Of a stretch of 54,059 nucleotides of DNA, positions 12,203-22,457 are shown piece after piece; the stretch's first letter is position 1; every line of letters begins with the position of its first letter. The DNA is taken from NCBI GenBank assembly GCA_012728095.1, contig JAAYFU010000071.1:1-54059 (forward strand), read 5' to 3'. Both the position numbers and the translations under genes were made by a program. A model generated the notes under the pieces. That model did no database searches. It saw only the letters and a program-made list of their open reading frames with translations, and was not told the origin of the DNA. This stretch comes from Clostridiaceae bacterium. GTDB taxonomy: Bacteria; Bacillota; Clostridia; DSM-8532.

Positions 12203-12468
12203 CCGTGCACCTGTCCTCGACAGGCAAGTACAAACGTACCATGCGCATCATACTCGGATCAGGCTGACTTGCGGCACACCCAGAGGTTCCGCTTACCGCT
12301 GCTTCCTTCCGGACCTGACGGGGTTCACAGTTCTGAATTGCGCAAGACCCAATCTTCATCGTACCTTGCAGCATAACTGACTTTACACTTGCATGCCTCA
12401 AACAGGAATTCGACTCCGCTATAGCGGATTGCGGATACAGGGCACCGCTAACTCCCCGTCTAGCACGG
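12203..12468 (-). ncRNA. ffs: SRP RNA (4.5S/scRNA), large Bacillus-type
   Basis: The minus strand carries the SRP RNA core: GAACCCCGTCAGGTCCGGAA followed by GGAAGCAGCGGTAAG near 12280-12325, the Ffh-binding helix 8. The ends CCGTGC (12463-12468) and GCACGG (12203-12208) pair, giving a molecule of about 266 nt with an Alu-like 5' region (GTGCTAGACGGGGAG). This is the long form found in Bacillus and Clostridia, part of the particle that directs membrane proteins to the translocon. It lies upstream of dnaX, a frequent neighbour in Firmicutes. Confidence 0.93.
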
Positions 12469-12552: not shown

Positions 12553-14220
12553 TTAATTTTTTTGATTGGCCCTGTCCTTAGCCCTGATTTCGGTACGACG
12601 AATTTTGCCGCTGATTGTTTTGGGTAACTCATCAACAAATTCTATAATACGAGGATATTTATACGGAGCGGTATGGGTTTTTACATAATCCTGTATTTCC
12701 TTTTTTAATTCTTCGCTTGGTTGATAACCTTTTGCAAGTACAATAGTAGCTTTAACTATCTGTCCTCTTACAGGGTCAGGGACTCCGGTAACCGCACATT
12801 CCAACACCGACGGATGCTCCATAATAACGCTTTCAACTTCAAAGGGGCCAATGCGGTATCCTGAGGATTTAATAATATCATCGGTTCTTCCGACATACCA
12901 GTAATATCCGTCCTCATCCTTATAGGCAGTATCACCTGTATGATACAATCCATCACGCATTGCCTGATTTGTCTTTTCTTCGTCTCTGTAATACCCCAGC
13001 ATAAGGCCCATAGGTTTTCCTTTATCGAGTCTTATGACAATCTCTCCGACTTCTCCGGGTTCTACGCTTCTTCCGTTTTCATCAACGAGATCCATATCAT
13101 AAAGTGGCGAAGGTTTACCCATTGATCCCGGCTTTGGCTCCATCCAGGTAGCTGTCATAAGACACAGTGTGGTTTCGGTCTGACCGAAGCCTTCCATAAG
13201 CCTGATGCCTGTTAATTCCTTAAACCGGTTGAACACTTCCGGATTAAGGGCTTCTCCTGCGGTGGTACAATATTTTATTGATGAAAGGTCATACTTGCTG
13301 AGATCTTCTTTGATAAGGAACCTGTAAATTGTCGGCGGAGCGCAGAAGGTGGTTACCTTGTACTTCTCTATCCTCTTTAACAATTCATCCGGATTAAACC
13401 TGTCAAAGTCAAAAGTAAATATGGCAGCTTCAGCAAGCCACTGACCATATAATTTCCCCCAGACAGCCTTGCCCCATCCGGTTTCGGAAACAGTCAGGTG
13501 CAAACCATCGGGATCCACGTTATGCCAATAAACCGCGGTGGGAATATGGGCAAGTGAATAATAATGATTATGAGCCACCATTTTAGGCATGCCCGTCGTA
13601 CCCGATGAGAAATACATCAACATTATTTCTTCGGCTTTCGGTCTGTCTTCACCGGTCGGGGGCACGAAATCAGGTGCTGTGGCTATTCCTTCTTCATAGC
13701 TCACCCACCCGTCTTTCTTTCCTCTTACAATAACCTTTATACTTAGAGTCTCGGTCTCACGCTGCGCCTCGTCCACCAGGTCCGATACCTGCCCATCGGC
13801 GGTACACACAATTGCCTTAATGCTGGCAGCGTTCACACGGTAGACAATATCTTTTGTCATCAATTGATTGGTAGCCGGAATTGCTATAGCGCCAATCTTG
13901 TGAAGCGCCATCATACAATACCACCATTCATAATGGCGCTTTAGAATAAGCATGACCGGGTCGCCTTTTTTTATTCCCAGCCCCTGGAAAAAGGAAGCGG
14001 TTTTATCGCTGTATTCTTTCATTTCCTTAAATGTAATGAACTTTTCATCTCCGGCTTCATTACACCAGACCATAGCCAGTTTATCCGGTTTTTCAGCCGC
14101 TAACCTGTCAACTACATCATAAGCAAAATTATAATACTCATCTTTCTTAAAACTTACCTCTTTAACGCTACCGTCTTCATTCAGTGTCTCAATTATGTAT
14201 TCCTTATATAACCTGGACAT
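12553..14220 (-). CDS. Acyl-CoA synthetase (AMP-forming, MACS-like)
   Basis: This 555-residue enzyme of the ANL superfamily activates a carboxylic acid via an acyl-adenylate to its CoA thioester. Seen motifs: the P-loop YFSSGTTGMPK, aromatic EGFGQTETT, GLYHTGDTAYKDEDGYYWYVGR, and the C-terminal KISGK-like TISGKIRR with its catalytic Lys. It resembles medium-chain/aryl acyl-CoA synthetases more than acetyl-CoA synthetase. Its ATG overlaps the regulator's stop (TAATG), so the two are translationally coupled and lie under the same T-box. An isoleucine-type T-box would suggest branched-chain acids such as 2-methylbutyrate as substrates, which is an inference. Confidence 0.9.
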   Translation of the reverse strand: MSRLYKEYIIETLNEDGSVKEVSFKKDEYYNFAYDVVDRLAAEKPDKLAMVWCNEAGDEKFITFKEMKEYSDKTASFFQGLGIKKGDPVMLILKRHYEWWYCMMALHKIGAIAIPATNQLMTKDIVYRVNAASIKAIVCTADGQVSDLVDEAQRETETLSIKVIVRGKKDGWVSYEEGIATAPDFVPPTGEDRPKAEEIMLMYFSSGTTGMPKMVAHNHYYSLAHIPTAVYWHNVDPDGLHLTVSETGWGKAVWGKLYGQWLAEAAIFTFDFDRFNPDELLKRIEKYKVTTFCAPPTIYRFLIKEDLSKYDLSSIKYCTTAGEALNPEVFNRFKELTGIRLMEGFGQTETTLCLMTATWMEPKPGSMGKPSPLYDMDLVDENGRSVEPGEVGEIVIRLDKGKPMGLMLGYYRDEEKTNQAMRDGLYHTGDTAYKDEDGYYWYVGRTDDIIKSSGYRIGPFEVESVIMEHPSVLECAVTGVPDPVRGQIVKATIVLAKGYQPSEELKKEIQDYVKTHTAPYKYPRIIEFVDELPKTISGKIRRTEIRAKDRANQKN

Positions 14221-14804
14221 TAACCCATCCTCCCGTTCTGACCTCTGATTACCACTGCAAGAAATACGCAGTCTTTACCGTTTGTCGCTACCATACCGTG
14301 CTTCCGTGTCGCATCATAGTATACGGAGTCCCCTTCTTCCATAATAAATTCATGATCATCTATTCTGACCTTTAGTGATCCGCTTAGGATATAGTCAAAC
14401 TCCTGCCCGTCATGACTTCTTTGGAGAATCTCTCCCTTATCGGCGGCCTCATCATAAGGAGCCTCCACAATGAAGGGTTCGGCATTCCTGTTCTTGAACA
14501 AATAAGCCAGGCTTTGATATTTAAAACCTTTTCTGCGCTCGATTGCAAGTCCTTTTCCCTTTTTCACATGAGTGTAAACCGACAGGGTGGGGCTGCTGCC
14601 GGTTAATAGTTCGCTAATATCCAGGCCAAGGCGTACCGCAACCTTATAAAGGAAGGTAAAGGAAAAGTCTCTCTTGCCTTCCTCATAGCTTAAATATTCT
14701 TCTTTCGAAACCTCCACCAGTTGTGCCATTTCCGAAACAGAGATACCAAAGTCTTCCCTCAGGCCCCGTATTCGCTGAGCAATCTCAAAAATCATTTCAT
14801 TCAT
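14220..14804 (-). CDS. XRE-family regulator with cupin domain
   Basis: This 194-residue protein has an N-terminal XRE helix-turn-helix (about 6-62: IRGLREDFGISVSEMAQLVE, then the recognition helix with SYEEGKRDFS). A C-terminal cupin_2 domain (about 110-185) shows GQEFDYILSGSLKVRIDD and EEGDSVYYDATRKHG. Such proteins sense a small ligand through the cupin and often control the adjacent gene. It is the first gene of a two-gene operon with the acyl-CoA synthetase, sharing TAATG with it. The RBS is a strong GGAGGAGG. It may act in addition to the T-box control. Confidence 0.9.
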   Translation of the reverse strand: MNEMIFEIAQRIRGLREDFGISVSEMAQLVEVSKEEYLSYEEGKRDFSFTFLYKVAVRLGLDISELLTGSSPTLSVYTHVKKGKGLAIERRKGFKYQSLAYLFKNRNAEPFIVEAPYDEAADKGEILQRSHDGQEFDYILSGSLKVRIDDHEFIMEEGDSVYYDATRKHGMVATNGKDCVFLAVVIRGQNGRMG

Positions 14805-14840: not shown

Positions 14841-14876
14841 AAAAAGCCCGTCCCAGCAAAATTTGCCGCTGGGACG
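14841..14876 (-). terminator. T-box intrinsic terminator
   Basis: A 9-bp perfect stem (14868-14876 with 14849-14857) plus outer GC pairs is followed by GGGC and five U residues. Its 5' side competes with pairing of the T-box sequence at 14886-14900. It may also end readthrough from the V-ATPase operon, for which no other terminator is visible. Confidence 0.88.
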
Positions 14877-15114
14877 AGCTGATAACCCGTGGTACCACCC
14901 ATTTTTAGCTTAATAAAGCCCTCATTAAGGTTCTAACAAACCCTTGCCTGTAACGTGGCTGACGCGATACCTTACTATTTTTCAGGTAACGGGCTCCGGA
15001 GAGATACCTGTAATTAAATTCCTGCCTGTTCGCACCAACCACAGGCTCTCTGTAAGGAAACCAATAATTACAGAGGCTCCTTCATTGCCTTTAAATATTT
15101 AAATATTATTGTTT
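14841..15114 (-). promoter_or_regulatory. T-box riboswitch, candidate isoleucine specifier
   Basis: The leader contains the T-box antiterminator core GGGTGGTACCACGG on the minus strand (14886-14900), a Stem I with a distal GCCTG/CAGGC arm and an AG-bulge-like TACAGAGA, and a closing CTCCGGAGC segment. A terminator with the stem CGTCCCAGC/GCTGGGACG follows. Reading back from the CTCCGGAGC segment, the most likely specifier codon is AUC (15003-15005, isoleucine), by analogy with how specifiers sit in other T-boxes. A neighbouring frame would give UAC or GUA. Uncharged tRNA binding would allow readthrough into the XRE-cupin and acyl-CoA synthetase genes. Confidence 0.85.
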
Positions 15115-15120
15115 CTATAT

Positions 15121-15149
15121 ATAATACAATCTGAATTCCCTGTTGTCAA
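15121..15149 (-). promoter_or_regulatory. Promoter of the T-box operon
   Basis: A perfect TTGACA (15144-15149) and TATTAT (15121-15126) are 17 nt apart on the minus strand. The -35 overlaps the stop codon of the V-ATPase subunit D gene, so the two transcription units abut. Confidence 0.85.
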
Positions 15150-15781
15150 ACAAAAAATTCAGCTCTTTTTTCTTTAACCCTTTTAATAACCTTCAGACGG
15201 GAGAATTCCTCCCTTTCCTTTTCACCCAATACGTTTTCGATAGTCGAAGTTAAACTTTCATACCTGGGAATTATAATGTTTTTGAGCGCATTTGTGCGTT
15301 TCATGGTTCGCCTGATATTTTGGGCCAGCCTGTATACCGAATTTTCAATTTCAGCCAATTGCGCCGTAAGAATTTTAACCTGTTCAAATTTTTTCCGAGC
15401 GATATCAAGAGCGCCGTTAGTCCTGTGAAAACTATATCGGGGCTTCATCTTTTTTTCGTCAATCGATACTATTGGGATTTCAACGCCCATTATGCTCTGT
15501 TCCCTGATCTGGATACTATCTTCTTCAGGTATGGCAAAACCTATTTGCTGGACAACTGAAATACCCAGGCTGATATTGGCATCCTGAAGAGATTTATATG
15601 CCTCGCTGAATACTTCAAGAATTTGTTTGTTCACCTTCCTGGCTTTATCTATCATGTTCATCATTTCCCGGACCAGGATATTCCGCTTTTTCTCCAGTAA
15701 ATCATAGCCTTGTCGGGACAAAGCGAGAGAATTCCTGGCCTTTATCAGGTTCCCTTTAGTGGGGAACAGATCCATATCCAT
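15146..15781 (-). CDS. V-type ATPase subunit D (central stalk)
   Basis: This 211-residue coiled-coil protein forms the rotor shaft inside the A3B3 head. The opening DLFPTKGNLIKARNSLALSR and the long helical N- and C-terminal arms are characteristic, with MKRTNALKNIIIPRYESLT near residue 170. It is the last gene of the operon and starts 3 nt after subunit B. Confidence 0.94.
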   Translation of the reverse strand: MDMDLFPTKGNLIKARNSLALSRQGYDLLEKKRNILVREMMNMIDKARKVNKQILEVFSEAYKSLQDANISLGISVVQQIGFAIPEEDSIQIREQSIMGVEIPIVSIDEKKMKPRYSFHRTNGALDIARKKFEQVKILTAQLAEIENSVYRLAQNIRRTMKRTNALKNIIIPRYESLTSTIENVLGEKEREEFSRLKVIKRVKEKRAEFFV

Positions 15782-15784
15782 AGG

Positions 15785-17179
15785 TCAGAAATCTCCTTTC
15801 TTTGATTCGGGAACCGTATAGTACTTATCAATGATATCAGGTGAAAGACGGTCCAGTTCCTCTTTGGGCAATAACCTCAATAATTCCCAGCCGAGGTCAA
15901 GAGTATCTTCTATACTCCTGTTTTCCCGGAAATCCTGTGCTATAAATCTATTTTCAAATTCCCGCCCGAAATTCATATATAATTTATCGACGGGACTTAA
16001 TTCTTCCTCACCAATGACAGACGCTAAAGCCCGCACCTCCTGAACCTTGGCATAGGATGCGAAAAGCTGGTTTGCAACATGTGGATGATCTTCCCTGGTA
16101 TACCCTTCTCCAATTCCGTCCTTCATAAGCCGCGACAAAGACGGCAGAACATTGATGGGAGGATATATTCCTTTTAAAGCAAAGTTTTTATCCAATACTA
16201 TCTGCCCCTCGGTTATATATCCCGTCAAATCAGGAATAGGATGGGTTATATCATCATTGGGCATTGTAAGAATAGGAATTTGGGTTATAGATCCCTTACA
16301 GCCTTTAACCATTCCCGCCCGCTCATAGATTGAGGCCAGATCACTGTATAAATATCCAGGGTAGCCCTTTCTGGAAGGGATTTCTCCCTTAGAGGACGAA
16401 ATCTCACGCAACGCTTCTGCATATGCCGTCATGTCAGTCAGAATAACCAGCACATGCATTCCTTTATCATACGCAAGATATTCAGCTACGGTTAAGGCGC
16501 ATCTTGGTGTAACTATTCTTTCTACAACGGGATCATTCGCCAGGTTCCGGAACATGACCACTCTGTCCAAAACGCCGCTTTTTTGAAAGCTTTGTCTAAA
16601 ATATTCGGCAACGTCATGCTTAACGCCCATAGCGGCAAAAACCACAGCAAAGTTTTCATTTCCCGCATCAGTAATTTTTGCCTGCCGAACAATCTGGACC
16701 GCCAGCTGATTATGAGGCAGGCCGCTTCCTGAAAACACCGGCAGTTTTTGTCCCCTTATAAGGGTAATAAGCCCGTCAATAGATGATATGCCTGTTTGTA
16801 TAAAATTTCTGGGGTATTCCCTCATGACCGGATTAAGAGGTTCACCATTAATATCCCGGCTTTTTTCCGGAAAAATCTCTCCCAGGCCGTCAACAGGCCT
16901 TCCGATTCCATCCAGCACTCTTCCCAAGAGTTCCATAGAAAGGGGCATTTTCAGCGGTTTCCCAAGAAGCCTTGAACGTGTATTCTCAAGGGAAATCCCG
17001 CGAGTGCCCTCAAATACCTGCACTACACACATTTCTCCGTAGATTTCAATTATTCTGCCCAGTCGCTTATTCCTTCCTACTGTGATTTCCACCATTTCTT
17101 CGTAGGAAGCGTCCTTAACTCCGTCAATTACTACCAATGGTCCGGAAATCTCTTTTAGCCCCATGTATTCGACATTCAT
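15785..17179 (-). CDS. V-type ATPase subunit B (non-catalytic head subunit)
   Basis: This 464-residue protein pairs with subunit A in the hexameric head and lacks a true Walker A motif, having [12 protein letters not shown] instead. [20 protein letters not shown] and [18 protein letters not shown] are diagnostic. I chose the ATG at 17177-17179, with a GGAGGGTGAAG site, over a start 13 codons upstream. It lies 65 nt after subunit A. Confidence 0.95.
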
Positions 17180-17244
17180 ACTCTTCACCCTCCGGAAGCC
17201 TTGATTCCAGTGCTGCAACTGTCGGTGCCATTAAAGGAGACACC

Positions 17245-19017
17245 TTATTTTTTATATTCAGCTTCTATTTCTTCAAGAATTTTTTCCAGTCTCCCGTTCA
17301 AATCCTCAAAAGCACTGAAATCATCATTGGGTATATTGTATTTAATGCGTATAAGCTCTTCGAATGCGCCGGATTTTCTTATGACAGACACCGGTACACC
17401 GATTGAAACAAGCTTAACGGCTTTCTCATAAAACCTTAAAATAGAATCCATCATCAGATACTGTTTTTTAATCGGAACATAAGTATCCTGTTCATGGTAT
17501 GCATTTTGCTGTAAAAACCCCTGCCTTATAGCCCTGGCTGTTTCCAGGACCAGTTTCTGCTCATCAGGAAGTATATCGCTCCCTATTAGTTTGACTATGT
17601 CCAACAGTTTTTCTTCTTCCTGCAGAATCCGGCTTATTTTAGCTTTCTTATCCATGAATTCGGGATGGGCATTCACACTGTACCACTCGGAAAGCTCCTG
17701 GCTGTATTCACTGTAACTGTTGGTCCAGTTGATAGCCGGATAATGCCGGGTATACGCCAGGGCCTTGTCCAAAGCCCAAAAGCAACGTACGAACCGTTTC
17801 GTATTCTGGGTAACCGGTTCTGAGAAATCTCCGCCCTGGGGAGATACCGCTCCTATTATTGAAACTGATCCTTCAGTTTTGTTGAAATTTTCAACCCGCC
17901 CGGCTCTTTCATAAAATTCAGAGAGCCTGGACGGCAGATATGCCGGGAAGCCCTCTTCCGCCGGCATTTCCTCAAGCCTGCCGGATATTTCTCTCAAAGC
18001 TTCAGCCCAGCGGGATGTGGAATCGGCCATGATAGCCACATCGTAACCCATATCACGGTAATACTCGGCTAAAGTGATCCCTGTATAAATAGACGCCTCC
18101 CTTGCGGCAACCGGCATATTGGAGGTGTTTCCAATCAACACGGTTCGCTCCATTAACGGCCTTCCGGTTCGGGGATCCACCAGCTTCGGAAAGTCTTCAA
18201 GAACCTCGGTAATCTCGTTTCCGCGTTCTCCGCAGCCGACATACACAATAATGTCAGCATTGGCCCATTTGGCAAGCTGGTGCTGGGTAAGGGTTTTTCC
18301 TGTGCCGAATCCTCCCGGAATAGCCGCTGCTCCTCCTTTTGCCATCGGGAACAGTGTATCTATAATCCTTTGACCCGTAATAAGAGGTATGTTCAAAGGA
18401 AGCCTGTGATAATACGGTCTTGGTTCCCGCACAGGCCATTCCTGGACAAGCGAAAGATTATGTATCGTTTTACCGTCTCTAACCTTTACTATCGTTTGAT
18501 CAATATTATATTCTCCGTCTCCGACGGCTTCGATTACCTCCCCCTTTATTCCGGGAGGTACCATTATCTTATGGATAACCGACTCGGTCTCCTTTACCTC
18601 GGCAATAAACTCTCCCTGGTTGACATAATCGCCAGGCCTGGCCAGCATTCTGACATGCCAGAGTTTATTCCTGTCCAGGTTATCCATAATGCTGCCGCGT
18701 TTAATGAATATACCTGTTTTTTCAGCAATTCTTTCAAGTGGTCTTTCTATGCCGTCAAAGACATTGCCTATAATACCCGGTCCCAATTTAACGGTCAGGG
18801 GTTTTCCGGTTGATATTACAGGCTCGCCCGGCTTAAGCCCGGTGGTGTTTTCATATACCTGAACAATGGTTTCAGTCTCAAAAACCCGGATAACCTCGCC
18901 GATAAGCCTGTCATGACCAACCAGCACCATCTCGTACATCTGAAATGCGTGGTTGCCGCGAACTTTTATAACCGGACCGTTTATTCCATATATCGTACCA
19001 TGTGATGAGTTTTCCAT
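17245..19017 (-). CDS. V-type ATPase subunit A (catalytic)
   Basis: This 590-residue catalytic subunit hydrolyses or makes ATP. Walker A is GGFGTGKT at 235-242. The A-type bulge or non-homologous region lies at about 110-200. [24 protein letters not shown] is cut here to its core [12 protein letters not shown]; downstream [16 protein letters not shown] is also present. Length matches V/A-type A subunits (about 590). It follows subunit E by 32 nt. Confidence 0.95.
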
Positions 19018-19049
19018 CTGTCCACCCTCAGTTTTGCAAGAGTAATTTA

Positions 19050-19646
19050 TTAGTCGAAAGAAAGCCCGTAGTTTTCCAGGAACGAAGCTTTCTCCTGATT
19101 CAGCCCGTCAGCGAAGGAGTAGTTATACAAAAGTCCCTTAGTCTTATTGCATATGATAAAGCCGCCTATAAGCTGTTCTTCACTCTCAGACAACTGAAAC
19201 CTGTTTTCCGTTTTTTTTCTGATTTCTTCGATAAGCGGCAAGTCATCACTGTCCGCATAGATAAGAATCTCTCCCGGGCCTATCTCTTCCAGGCTGCGAA
19301 GGATTCTTTCAATCATGTAGTTTTTATATTCATCAGTGTTTTTAAAGGCTATTAGCTTTTCCACTACATTGGAAAACACCTGCTGAATGATTTCCTCCCG
19401 TCGGTTAAAGAGTTTTTGCTTGCCTGCCAGAATAGCCTTCGACACTTCTTCATTACAATCTCTCTCGATTATATCCAGTGATTCATGAATTTGTTCGTAG
19501 GCTTTCTTAAGTAATTGAAGCTCTCTTTCAGCAATGGTCCCGGTACTTTCCTTTTCAGCCCGCGATATTAATTCCTTTTTCCTGGCATTGGCCTCTCTCA
19601 TAACCATATATGAGAACTTTTTTAGTTTCTCCTCTATTTTTGCCAT
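19050..19646 (-). CDS. V-type ATPase subunit E (peripheral stalk)
   Basis: This protein of about 198 residues has a long charged N-terminal helix (AKIEEKLKKFSYMVMREANA and on, to about 95) and a C-terminal globular part with QLIGGFIICNKTKGLLYNYS. That is the layout of stator subunit E, which pairs with the G/H coiled coil. Three in-frame ATG codons lie close together (19658, 19652, 19646); I prefer the last because GGGGAT precedes it. Confidence 0.88.
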   Translation of the reverse strand: MAKIEEKLKKFSYMVMREANARKKELISRAEKESTGTIAERELQLLKKAYEQIHESLDIIERDCNEEVSKAILAGKQKLFNRREEIIQQVFSNVVEKLIAFKNTDEYKNYMIERILRSLEEIGPGEILIYADSDDLPLIEEIRKKTENRFQLSESEEQLIGGFIICNKTKGLLYNYSFADGLNQEKASFLENYGLSFD

Positions 19647-19706
19647 AAACATCCCCATTCTCTTGATCCCATGACTGTTGAGCAGGAAATGAACCGGTCA
19701 TCCCTG

Positions 19707-20015
19707 TCATAATTTAATTCCGATTGCCTCGTTTATAATCTCCATGATGTAATCCGGCCGGCGTCTTGTGCCGTGCCTGTCAGGAATCTCAACAATCAGC
19801 GGTCTTGAATAATTCAGCCTGATATCTGAAATAACATCGGGAAACATGGCAGATACTAATTCAGTAATTAGAATTATCCCAATATCTTTATCCGCCATGG
19901 TTTTTTTCAAAGCATCCAGGGCTTCCTCCCGGCTGTGAACAATCACACCGTCAATGCCGGCAAGACGCATACCTATTTTTGTGTCAATATTATCGCTTAT
20001 GAGAAACATCTTCAT
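19707..20015 (-). CDS. V-type ATPase subunit F (central stalk)
   Basis: This 102-residue protein has the subunit F fold: KMFLISDNIDTKIGMRLAGI, a regulatory ADKDIGIILIT strand and PLIVEIPDRHG before a C-terminal helix. It sits on the rotor next to subunit D. The ATG at 20013-20015 has a GAGG site 9-10 nt upstream; a TTG five codons earlier overlaps that site. Order K-F-E-A matches other clostridial operons. Confidence 0.9.
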   Translation of the reverse strand: MKMFLISDNIDTKIGMRLAGIDGVIVHSREEALDALKKTMADKDIGIILITELVSAMFPDVISDIRLNYSRPLIVEIPDRHGTRRRPDYIMEIINEAIGIKL

Positions 20016-20030
20016 CTTAAAGAACCTCAA

Positions 20031-20483
<453 letters not shown>

Positions 20484-20531
20484 TTATTGTTATTCCTGCC
20501 GTCAGAGAATCCTGCCAGCTTATTTTCACCT

Positions 20532-22457
20532 TTATTCATCTGTAACCCGTACGGGTTTGAATTCATATCCTTCGCCAATATAATATCGGCCGAACATCTC
20601 GTAAAACTCCAGGCGCATGCACTGGATTCCTACAATGAGACCTTCAAGACCTATCGTTATTATATTTCCGATAATAACAATCAAAATTCCGCCTATTCCT
20701 CTCATCATTCGGTACAGAGTCCAAACCGCAAGTGAAAGACCTGCATGATTGAGGGCAAAAGCGCCGACTCTTGCAAAAGAAACCGTGCTTGAGAAGAAAG
20801 ACAACAATGTTTCAAATATGTCAAAACCCGACTCAACAAAGTAAATGCCTTTTTCATTCGGCATAATGTGTTCTTTGCGCAGTATCAGGTTTTCCAGGGG
20901 CTCTTTAAACAGAATCATCAGGGTCGGAATAATGACCACTGGTATTAGGACCAATCCTGACAGTATTAATCGTCCTGTCATAATGTAAATTAACACGACA
21001 ATCACGAGTCCGCCATAGAAGAGGAGCCCCGCAAGGCCGTTTTTATCAAATAACAGTTTTCCCCATTTACGCATCCTGATGCAGTTTATCATGTTTGCGA
21101 TCATGGTTATTATTATTATAAATGCGCCGTATCCTACAGAAACGTAGAGTATGGTATTTATGTTGGTCTTACTGTGAAGAGGGCTCATCCATATGGGGGG
21201 TAAAATCTCTTCATTGCCGAATACACTGCCGTACACAAATCCGAAAACGGTGGAAGATATTCCTACGTAAACCATCACGCCTCCCAGGGGCATTTTTTTT
21301 ATTTTATACAGTATTAGTCCGAGAATCGCGATAACCGCGCCCTGACCTACATCACCGAACATGAGCCCGAACATCAGCACAAAGGTGATGCAAAGCAAAG
21401 GAGTGGGATCCAACTCTTTCGCAGAGGGCAGTCCGTACATAGTAACCAGGCTTTCGAAAGGCTTAAAAAACCGGTTATTTTTCATAATGGTGGGCGGAGC
21501 AGCATTAACGACGCAATCAGGATCTTCACACCCAAGGACAATCCGATCCACCGCCTTGATTTCTTTCGCGAGTTTATCATAATCTGCACACGGCATCCAA
21601 CCGACCAGGAAAAATGTTTCATGGCTATGGGAGCAAAACTTTTTTACTTCATGTAACTTATTAAGATAAATAACTTTATGGAACAGCTTTGAAAATTCCT
21701 CTCTTTTGGAGCTCAAATACTTATCCATGTTTTTCTTATCCTGTTGCATCTTTTCCTGCAACCGGATGATTTCCGCCTTCATTTTTTCACTTGTAATCTT
21801 CGGTTTTCCTTTGACATCTCCGGAAATCCTCACACGGTTAAATCCCATGGTTGCAAAAACATTATCGATAACCTGGGCTTCCGACGCTGGCATAAAGTAT
21901 GAAAGCCATATACTTTCATCATCTTCCGAAACCGGCACCACAACGACATCCAATTCTTCAAGATACTTCTTCTGCCGATTGTATAAATCCCTGGGGACCG
22001 TACCAAAACGAAATTTCATAAATGTAAAATGAAAAAGCTCATCAATATTAACATTAAGGTTTACCAGCGGACGTATCTGCTTAATAATCTGCTCTCTCTC
22101 CACGATAGCCGCCTGGTCCGCCTCCGACTCTTTCCTGAAGCATGATATTTTATCCTCAATTTCACTGATAAAAGCTTCTGCGGCAGTAGTATCAAGGGGC
22201 ATCAGGAGCTCTTTCTCTATTGTCGCTTTATCATATGTTTCTATCTTTACATGAAACTGTTCATTAAGCACCTTCATTCTTTTTAACAGGTTGTCAAGCG
22301 AGTTATCATCTTCAAAGGGAATTAAGCCCGGAACATTCAGGTGTTTATAGGCAGGCTCAAGCTGAATATTCCCGTTGATTACGTACTTTAGCACAAATTC
22401 ATCTATTTTGCTTATGGGTCCCATAATTCTGACATGCTTCATTTGTTCAACTGCCAT
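20532..22457 (-). CDS. V-type ATPase subunit I (membrane stator a-subunit)
   Basis: This 641-residue protein has a cytoplasmic N-terminal half (about 1-320) with coiled coils and a C-terminal half of seven or eight membrane helices. PLLCITFVLMFGLMFGDVGQG begins the membrane part at about 350. The half-channel Arg is expected in the helices near SFARVGAFALNHAGLSLA. This subunit forms the ion path beside the K ring. It begins 4 nt after subunit C ends. Confidence 0.95.
   Translation of the reverse strand: MAVEQMKHVRIMGPISKIDEFVLKYVINGNIQLEPAYKHLNVPGLIPFEDDNSLDNLLKRMKVLNEQFHVKIETYDKATIEKELLMPLDTTAAEAFISEIEDKISCFRKESEADQAAIVEREQIIKQIRPLVNLNVNIDELFHFTFMKFRFGTVPRDLYNRQKKYLEELDVVVVPVSEDDESIWLSYFMPASEAQVIDNVFATMGFNRVRISGDVKGKPKITSEKMKAEIIRLQEKMQQDKKNMDKYLSSKREEFSKLFHKVIYLNKLHEVKKFCSHSHETFFLVGWMPCADYDKLAKEIKAVDRIVLGCEDPDCVVNAAPPTIMKNNRFFKPFESLVTMYGLPSAKELDPTPLLCITFVLMFGLMFGDVGQGAVIAILGLILYKIKKMPLGGVMVYVGISSTVFGFVYGSVFGNEEILPPIWMSPLHSKTNINTILYVSVGYGAFIIIITMIANMINCIRMRKWGKLLFDKNGLAGLLFYGGLVIVVLIYIMTGRLILSGLVLIPVVIIPTLMILFKEPLENLILRKEHIMPNEKGIYFVESGFDIFETLLSFFSSTVSFARVGAFALNHAGLSLAVWTLYRMMRGIGGILIVIIGNIITIGLEGLIVGIQCMRLEFYEMFGRYYIGEGYEFKPVRVTDE

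Follow-up and report, generated by a model that had tools for sequence, protein, structure and literature searches.

T-box leaders that read tRNA-Ile are familiar from ileS and ilv operons, and the usual targets of T-boxes are a tRNA synthetase, a transporter or a classical biosynthesis gene. The leader described here resembles the known Ile T-boxes in its Stem I with an AUC specifier, its core with a UGGU bulge and its terminator, and it is laid out like the ileS and ilvB leaders of the same genome. It differs from them in its target, a gene for an XRE-cupin regulator followed by one for an acid-CoA ligase. It is long established that anaerobes of the rumen and gut require or exploit branched short-chain acids and synthesize amino acids from these. 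Reductive carboxylation in rumen anaerobes leads from the acid via the acyl-CoA and the 2-oxoacid to the amino acid, and the three corresponding gene types are linked in relatives of the present host; here, however, the route would be bound to amino-acid-specific T-boxes and to a defined gene set.

Two described ligases are of particular relevance. MacsMa from Methanosarcina acetivorans prefers 2-methylbutyrate (PMC10455477), and MbcS, the methylbutyryl-CoA synthetase of Staphylococcus aureus, accepts 2-methylbutyrate as well as isobutyrate, whereas isovalerate is a poor substrate (PMC10026030). A literature search for T-boxes with an acyl-CoA synthetase, a CoA ligase or phenylacetate returned nothing relevant, with key older T-box surveys outside its coverage, so that an earlier mention is possible; the main text of one T-box survey (PMC2494555) does not mention such targets. 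Both the RNA class and the enzyme type are known, whereas neither the regulon described below nor its tandem Ile/Val modules or their connection with VorBAC and IlvE turned up in the literature searched, which did not extend to those older surveys.

A T-box leader precedes the regulator and synthetase genes

The window, i.e., the whole stretch of DNA that was analyzed, comprises 54,059 nucleotides from a Clostridiaceae bacterium. It contains the following features of the locus:

15121–15149, minus strand: sigma-70-type promoter TTGACA-17-TATTAT, agreeing at 11 of 12 positions
14867–15094, minus strand: T-box leader RNA (RF00230), Rfam, 114.9 bits
15077–15080, minus strand: GGAG, 5' strand of the Stem I helix that adjoins the specifier, pairing with CUCC at 15001–14998
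15003–15005, minus strand: specifier codon AUC (Ile), invariant in the genus and read with a calibrated rule
14887–14900, minus strand: T-box core GGGTGGTACCACGG, from the sequence and the Rfam match
14845–14880, minus strand: intrinsic terminator, a stem-loop of 15 pairs (9 G-C) followed by T's
14220–14804, minus strand: XRE-cupin regulator, 194 aa, Pfam HTH_19 and Cupin_2
12553–14220, minus strand: AMP-forming acyl-CoA synthetase of MacsMa/MbcS type, 555 aa, Pfam AMP-binding and AMP-binding_C, match to 3ETC

The leader is a real T-box, framed by a promoter of its own and a strong terminator. In an Rfam covariance-model search it matched the full RF00230 model with 114.9 bits (cut-off 93, E 9e-25), and the core and terminator that the initial annotation had proposed are present together, as a core with a UGGN bulge and a competing terminator. 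The UGGU bulge itself lies at 14897–14894 and is compatible with a tRNA that carries A73, the base found in tRNA-Ile. The promoter had been called perfect; the TTGACA-17-TATTAT arrangement is indeed there, but since 11 of 12 positions agree it is near-perfect. Its −35 box overlaps the stop codon of the gene upstream of the leader, V-ATPase subunit D. This gene belongs to a V-type ATPase cluster (15146–22457, minus strand), in which subunit D was assigned by Pfam and the others by eye. At the other end of the locus, a large bacterial SRP RNA (12203–12468, minus strand, 197 bits) lies directly downstream of the synthetase gene.

The regulator and synthetase reading frames share one base (TAATG), which makes translational coupling plausible. 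The earlier description of a cupin-type regulator coupled to the synthetase thus holds for the overlap and for the HTH_19 and Cupin_2 domains, with coupling as a plausible consequence. The regulator gene keeps its place ahead of the synthetase in the genus and at almost every related locus. Its product probably adds a sensing of the acid or of its acyl-CoA. The host has a second XRE-cupin/acyl-CoA synthetase pair on another contig (C75; L081 and L164, 39% and 55% identity), which is without a T-box and adjoins a Crp/Fnr-like regulator. In other genera of the family we further found an XRE-cupin paralogue (L052–L061, about 45% identity) and, a short distance upstream of it on the other strand, a 6S RNA gene; this paralogue group, lacking a T-box and having the 6S RNA gene nearby, was set aside.

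The specifier codon is AUC

The specifier was read by a simple rule, as the three bases that a single base separates from the helix, and TBDB applies the identical rule (PMC7778990). The host genome contains 14 T-boxes, and we tried the rule on the 13 apart from this leader, naming the genes that follow them by eye from their translations. It returned UAC for tyrS, AUC for ileS, GUC for valS, ACC for thrS, UUC for pheS and AAC for aspS, AUC for ilvB and UUC for DAHP synthase/pheA. T-boxes of transporters gave AUG (met-type ABC) and CUC (branched-chain amino-acid ABC), and those of ligases UUC (PaaK) and CUC (AMP ligase). A weak T-box at proS was the sole case among the 13 without an automatic call. 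On the present leader the rule gives AUC at 15005–15003 in the internal loop of Stem I, at the same position as the AUC of the ileS and ilvB T-boxes. In the alignment of the 13 genus leaders, AUC is unchanged in all of them, while U, C or G may precede it and A or U may follow. The calibrated rule and the invariance of AUC in the genus support the isoleucine specifier that had been proposed from the sequence.

Conservation in the genus and gain and loss beyond it

The gene pair occurs in 13 of 14 genus genomes, the host counted, and each of the other 12 pairs has a T-box (99.6–122.9 bits). The terminator region is conserved across the 13 leaders, and the −35 element TTGAC is retained in 12 of them. 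Their consensus fold has 66 pairs, with compensatory changes in 21; at one pair of the helix nearest to the specifier, six leaders have G-C and another six A-U. The neighboring genus g7 retains the gene pair with 73–80% identity, and at its loci neither cmscan nor inspection by eye found a T-box.

A scan of named genomes yielded 80 related loci, two of which (L082 and L083) apparently are genus genomes already counted. T-boxes stand just upstream of the XRE gene in 39 of the 80, with 44 leaders in total. Their specifiers are AUC in 38 and GUA (Val) in six, and nothing else was read; a few of these were read by hand, hand readings having been used for L107, L109, L122, L129, L140, L144b, L146, L153b, L126 and L172. 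In the sample tested, cmscan confirmed the T-boxes of relatives, part of them below the gathering score with E of 6e-16 or better. Five loci (L139, L144, L146, L153 and L157) carry tandem modules, always AUC first and GUA second, and L155 shows a single module, a GUA one, in the stretch examined. On the enzyme tree, the GUA label requires two changes. The tandem modules suggest that T-box specificity and the presumed enzyme specificity have diverged together.

About half of the 80 loci are without a T-box. For seven of these relatives (L125, L136, L106, L137, L105, L100 and L099) none was detected by cmscan or by eye, and because both were negative there and in g7, we consider the absence real. 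Since g7 and roughly half of the wider relatives hold the gene pair without it, the T-box is dispensable. It also must have been gained and lost often, because close relatives differ in having one: the synthetases of L114, with an Ile T-box, and of L125 and L136, without, are near-identical (tree distance about 0.03), which points to a recent gain or loss.

The synthetase is a predicted 2-methylbutyryl-CoA synthetase

The closest solved homolog of the synthetase is by far 3ETC (755 bits against 419 for the next), aligned over residues 26–551. We take 3ETC to be MacsMa, from the structure title cited in PMC10455477 and from general knowledge. Among NCBIfam models, the best was MbcS (NF047394) with 483 bits, a score under the curated cut-off of 850, so that the enzyme is related to this family and stays outside its formal bounds. 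From these matches, the enzyme is predicted to be a 2-methylbutyryl-CoA synthetase, in support of the branched-acid activation that the initial annotation had suggested. It differs from MacsMa in that the Methanosarcina locus examined (L156) showed no T-box and that the substrate of the bacterial enzyme is a prediction, and from MbcS in the family cut-off and in the destination of the product, which in S. aureus is branched-chain fatty acids.

Linkage to VorBAC and IlvE and frequent absence of IlvC

In relatives such as L148, L157 and L254, the synthetase is physically linked to VorBAC and IlvE, and the VorB and IlvE identifications exceed curated cut-offs. In L157 the order is [AUC T-box, XRE, ACS][GUA T-box, XRE, ACS, NTPase, VorBAC, IlvE], and in L148 it is [AUC T-box, XRE, ACS, NTPase, VorBAC, IlvE]; variants of these arrangements are found in L139, L146, L254, L257, L258, L261 and L262. 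All of these loci and L156 of a Methanosarcina sp. have the module linked to VorBAC and/or IlvE; L156 shares the order XRE-cupin, synthetase, VorBAC without a T-box. Furthermore, Leu (CUC) T-boxes stand ahead of NTPase-VorBAC-IlvE operons in L253, L255 and L256, and L257 has a CUC T-box placed between its Vor-IlvE genes and a TIM-ACS gene. The small P-loop NTPase recurs in VorBAC-IlvE operons (L253:2527–3183 and homologs) and has no close NCBIfam match.

Of the 32 genomes with the T-box module, 27 lack IlvC, the ketol-acid reductoisomerase, compared with 48 of 93 across the order (Fisher p = 0.0014), a difference that we treat as supportive only because the assemblies are mostly metagenome-assembled, with uncertain completeness, and the genomes are related. 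All six genomes with a GUA module lack IlvC. A 2-oxoacid oxidoreductase gamma domain was found in all 38 genomes searched and a class IV aminotransferase in 34 of them. From the linkage, the absence of IlvC and the presence of oxidoreductase and aminotransferase, it follows that conversion of an acid via its CoA ester and the 2-oxoacid to the amino acid is the natural reading.

Pathway genes and further ligase T-boxes in the host

In the host, the module (contig C49), VorBAC (C71) and a single-copy class IV aminotransferase (C69) are on separate contigs; neither VorBAC nor the aminotransferase adjoins the module or has a T-box. Host VorB scores above the curated cut-off, and IorAB was found on contig C57. 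The host also has an ilv-leu operon under an Ile T-box that looks complete and includes citramalate synthase. The acid route would hence be a salvage and not a necessity in this organism. Threonine dehydratase is not among its three PALP proteins, which resemble cysK, trpB and thrC.

Two other ligases of the host have T-boxes of their own. A Phe (UUC) T-box lies upstream of the phenylacetate-CoA ligase PaaK (L007 and L028, host contig C18) and is conserved in the genus and in g7. A Leu (CUC or CUG) T-box lies upstream of an AMP-forming ligase (L003 and L027, host contig C70), conserved in the genus and in four other genera; for the Leu and Phe leaders of relatives, the specifiers were called by a script and not taken from a covariance fold. 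In some genera the Leu-type ligase is fused to an N-terminal domain that resembles sugar-phosphate isomerases. Its acid might be isovalerate, which is a guess. Conservation of both arrangements suggests a single principle, by which every acid's ligase bears the T-box for the corresponding amino acid.

A proposed mechanism and its alternatives

We think it very likely that uncharged tRNA-Ile switches on a salvage route in which 2-methylbutyrate is activated with CoA, reductively carboxylated and then transaminated to isoleucine. The leader would act as a transcription-attenuating T-box that reads tRNA-Ile with the anticodon GAU. When isoleucine is scarce, the uncharged tRNA would pair with the AUC specifier, its NCCA end would pair with the UGGU bulge, and the antiterminator would form, so that regulator and synthetase are transcribed. 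The synthetase may then convert 2-methylbutyrate from the surroundings to 2-methylbutyryl-CoA, the VorBAC-type 2-oxoacid:ferredoxin oxidoreductase would carboxylate it reductively to 3-methyl-2-oxovalerate, and the class IV, IlvE-type aminotransferase could yield isoleucine. The tandem Ile/Val modules and the linkage to VorBAC and IlvE in relatives support isoleucine formation by reductive carboxylation as first suggested; the initial annotation was right on the element and the codon and very probably also on the physiology.

The same acid would serve if the synthetase supplied 2-methylbutyryl-CoA as a primer for anteiso branched-chain fatty acids, with an Ile T-box in control since isoleucine shortage also removes that primer. 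MbcS, the best NCBIfam model for the synthetase, does feed fatty-acid synthesis in S. aureus (PMC10026030). However, the modules of relatives are linked to VorBAC and IlvE, genes of a route to amino acids, VorBAC-IlvE operons also occur behind Leu T-boxes, and the Phe T-box of the host precedes a phenylacetate-CoA ligase, the product of which is not a usual fatty-acid primer; we hence regard a primer function as unlikely. Enzymes of the VOR type are reversible, and the T-box is missing from about half of the related loci, as might be expected if the pair were catabolic or energetic, with VOR working oxidatively, the synthetase reversed or recycling acids from amino-acid fermentation, and the T-box incidental. 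Yet a T-box turns genes on under shortage of an amino acid, whereas fermentation of that amino acid would call for the reverse. In addition, the specifiers are limited to Ile and Val, the operon includes a biosynthetic aminotransferase and IlvC is often lacking, all of which makes a catabolic role very improbable.

There is hardly any likelihood that the T-box has decayed or that it responds to another tRNA, for example at UCU (Ser), one base further on. Specifier frames of T-boxes may be ambiguous (PMC7778990), and in the genus leaders the shifted frame reads UCU or UCA, each of which codes for Ser. A C may also follow AUC outside the genus, and the resulting UCC is again a Ser codon. But the shifted frame would lie directly against the helix, a spacing not seen in the host T-boxes used for calibration, and no Ser frame explains the GUA of the second modules. 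Moreover, the UGGU bulge demands A73, whereas tRNA-Ser usually has G73, and the conserved structure and core speak against decay.

Implications for anaerobic Clostridia

Isoleucine salvage in the host probably is one instance of a widespread regulon of anaerobic Clostridia, in which each acid-CoA ligase would carry the T-box of the amino acid that its acid would become. The pairs, as one joint reading with the regulon, would be Ile with 2-methylbutyrate, Val with isobutyrate, Leu with isovalerate and Phe with phenylacetate; the specifier would have changed between Ile and Val in duplicated modules, and the acid route would replace the classical branched-chain pathway in many gut species. As the specifiers predict the ligase substrates amino acid by amino acid, both the activating enzymes and their control are directly testable. 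Among the related loci, the arrangement is common to many gut and anaerobic bacteria, often with a Val-reading second copy and VorBAC/IlvE genes. This suggests a salvage economy, in which bacteria without IlvC would subsist on isoacids that amino-acid fermenters release.
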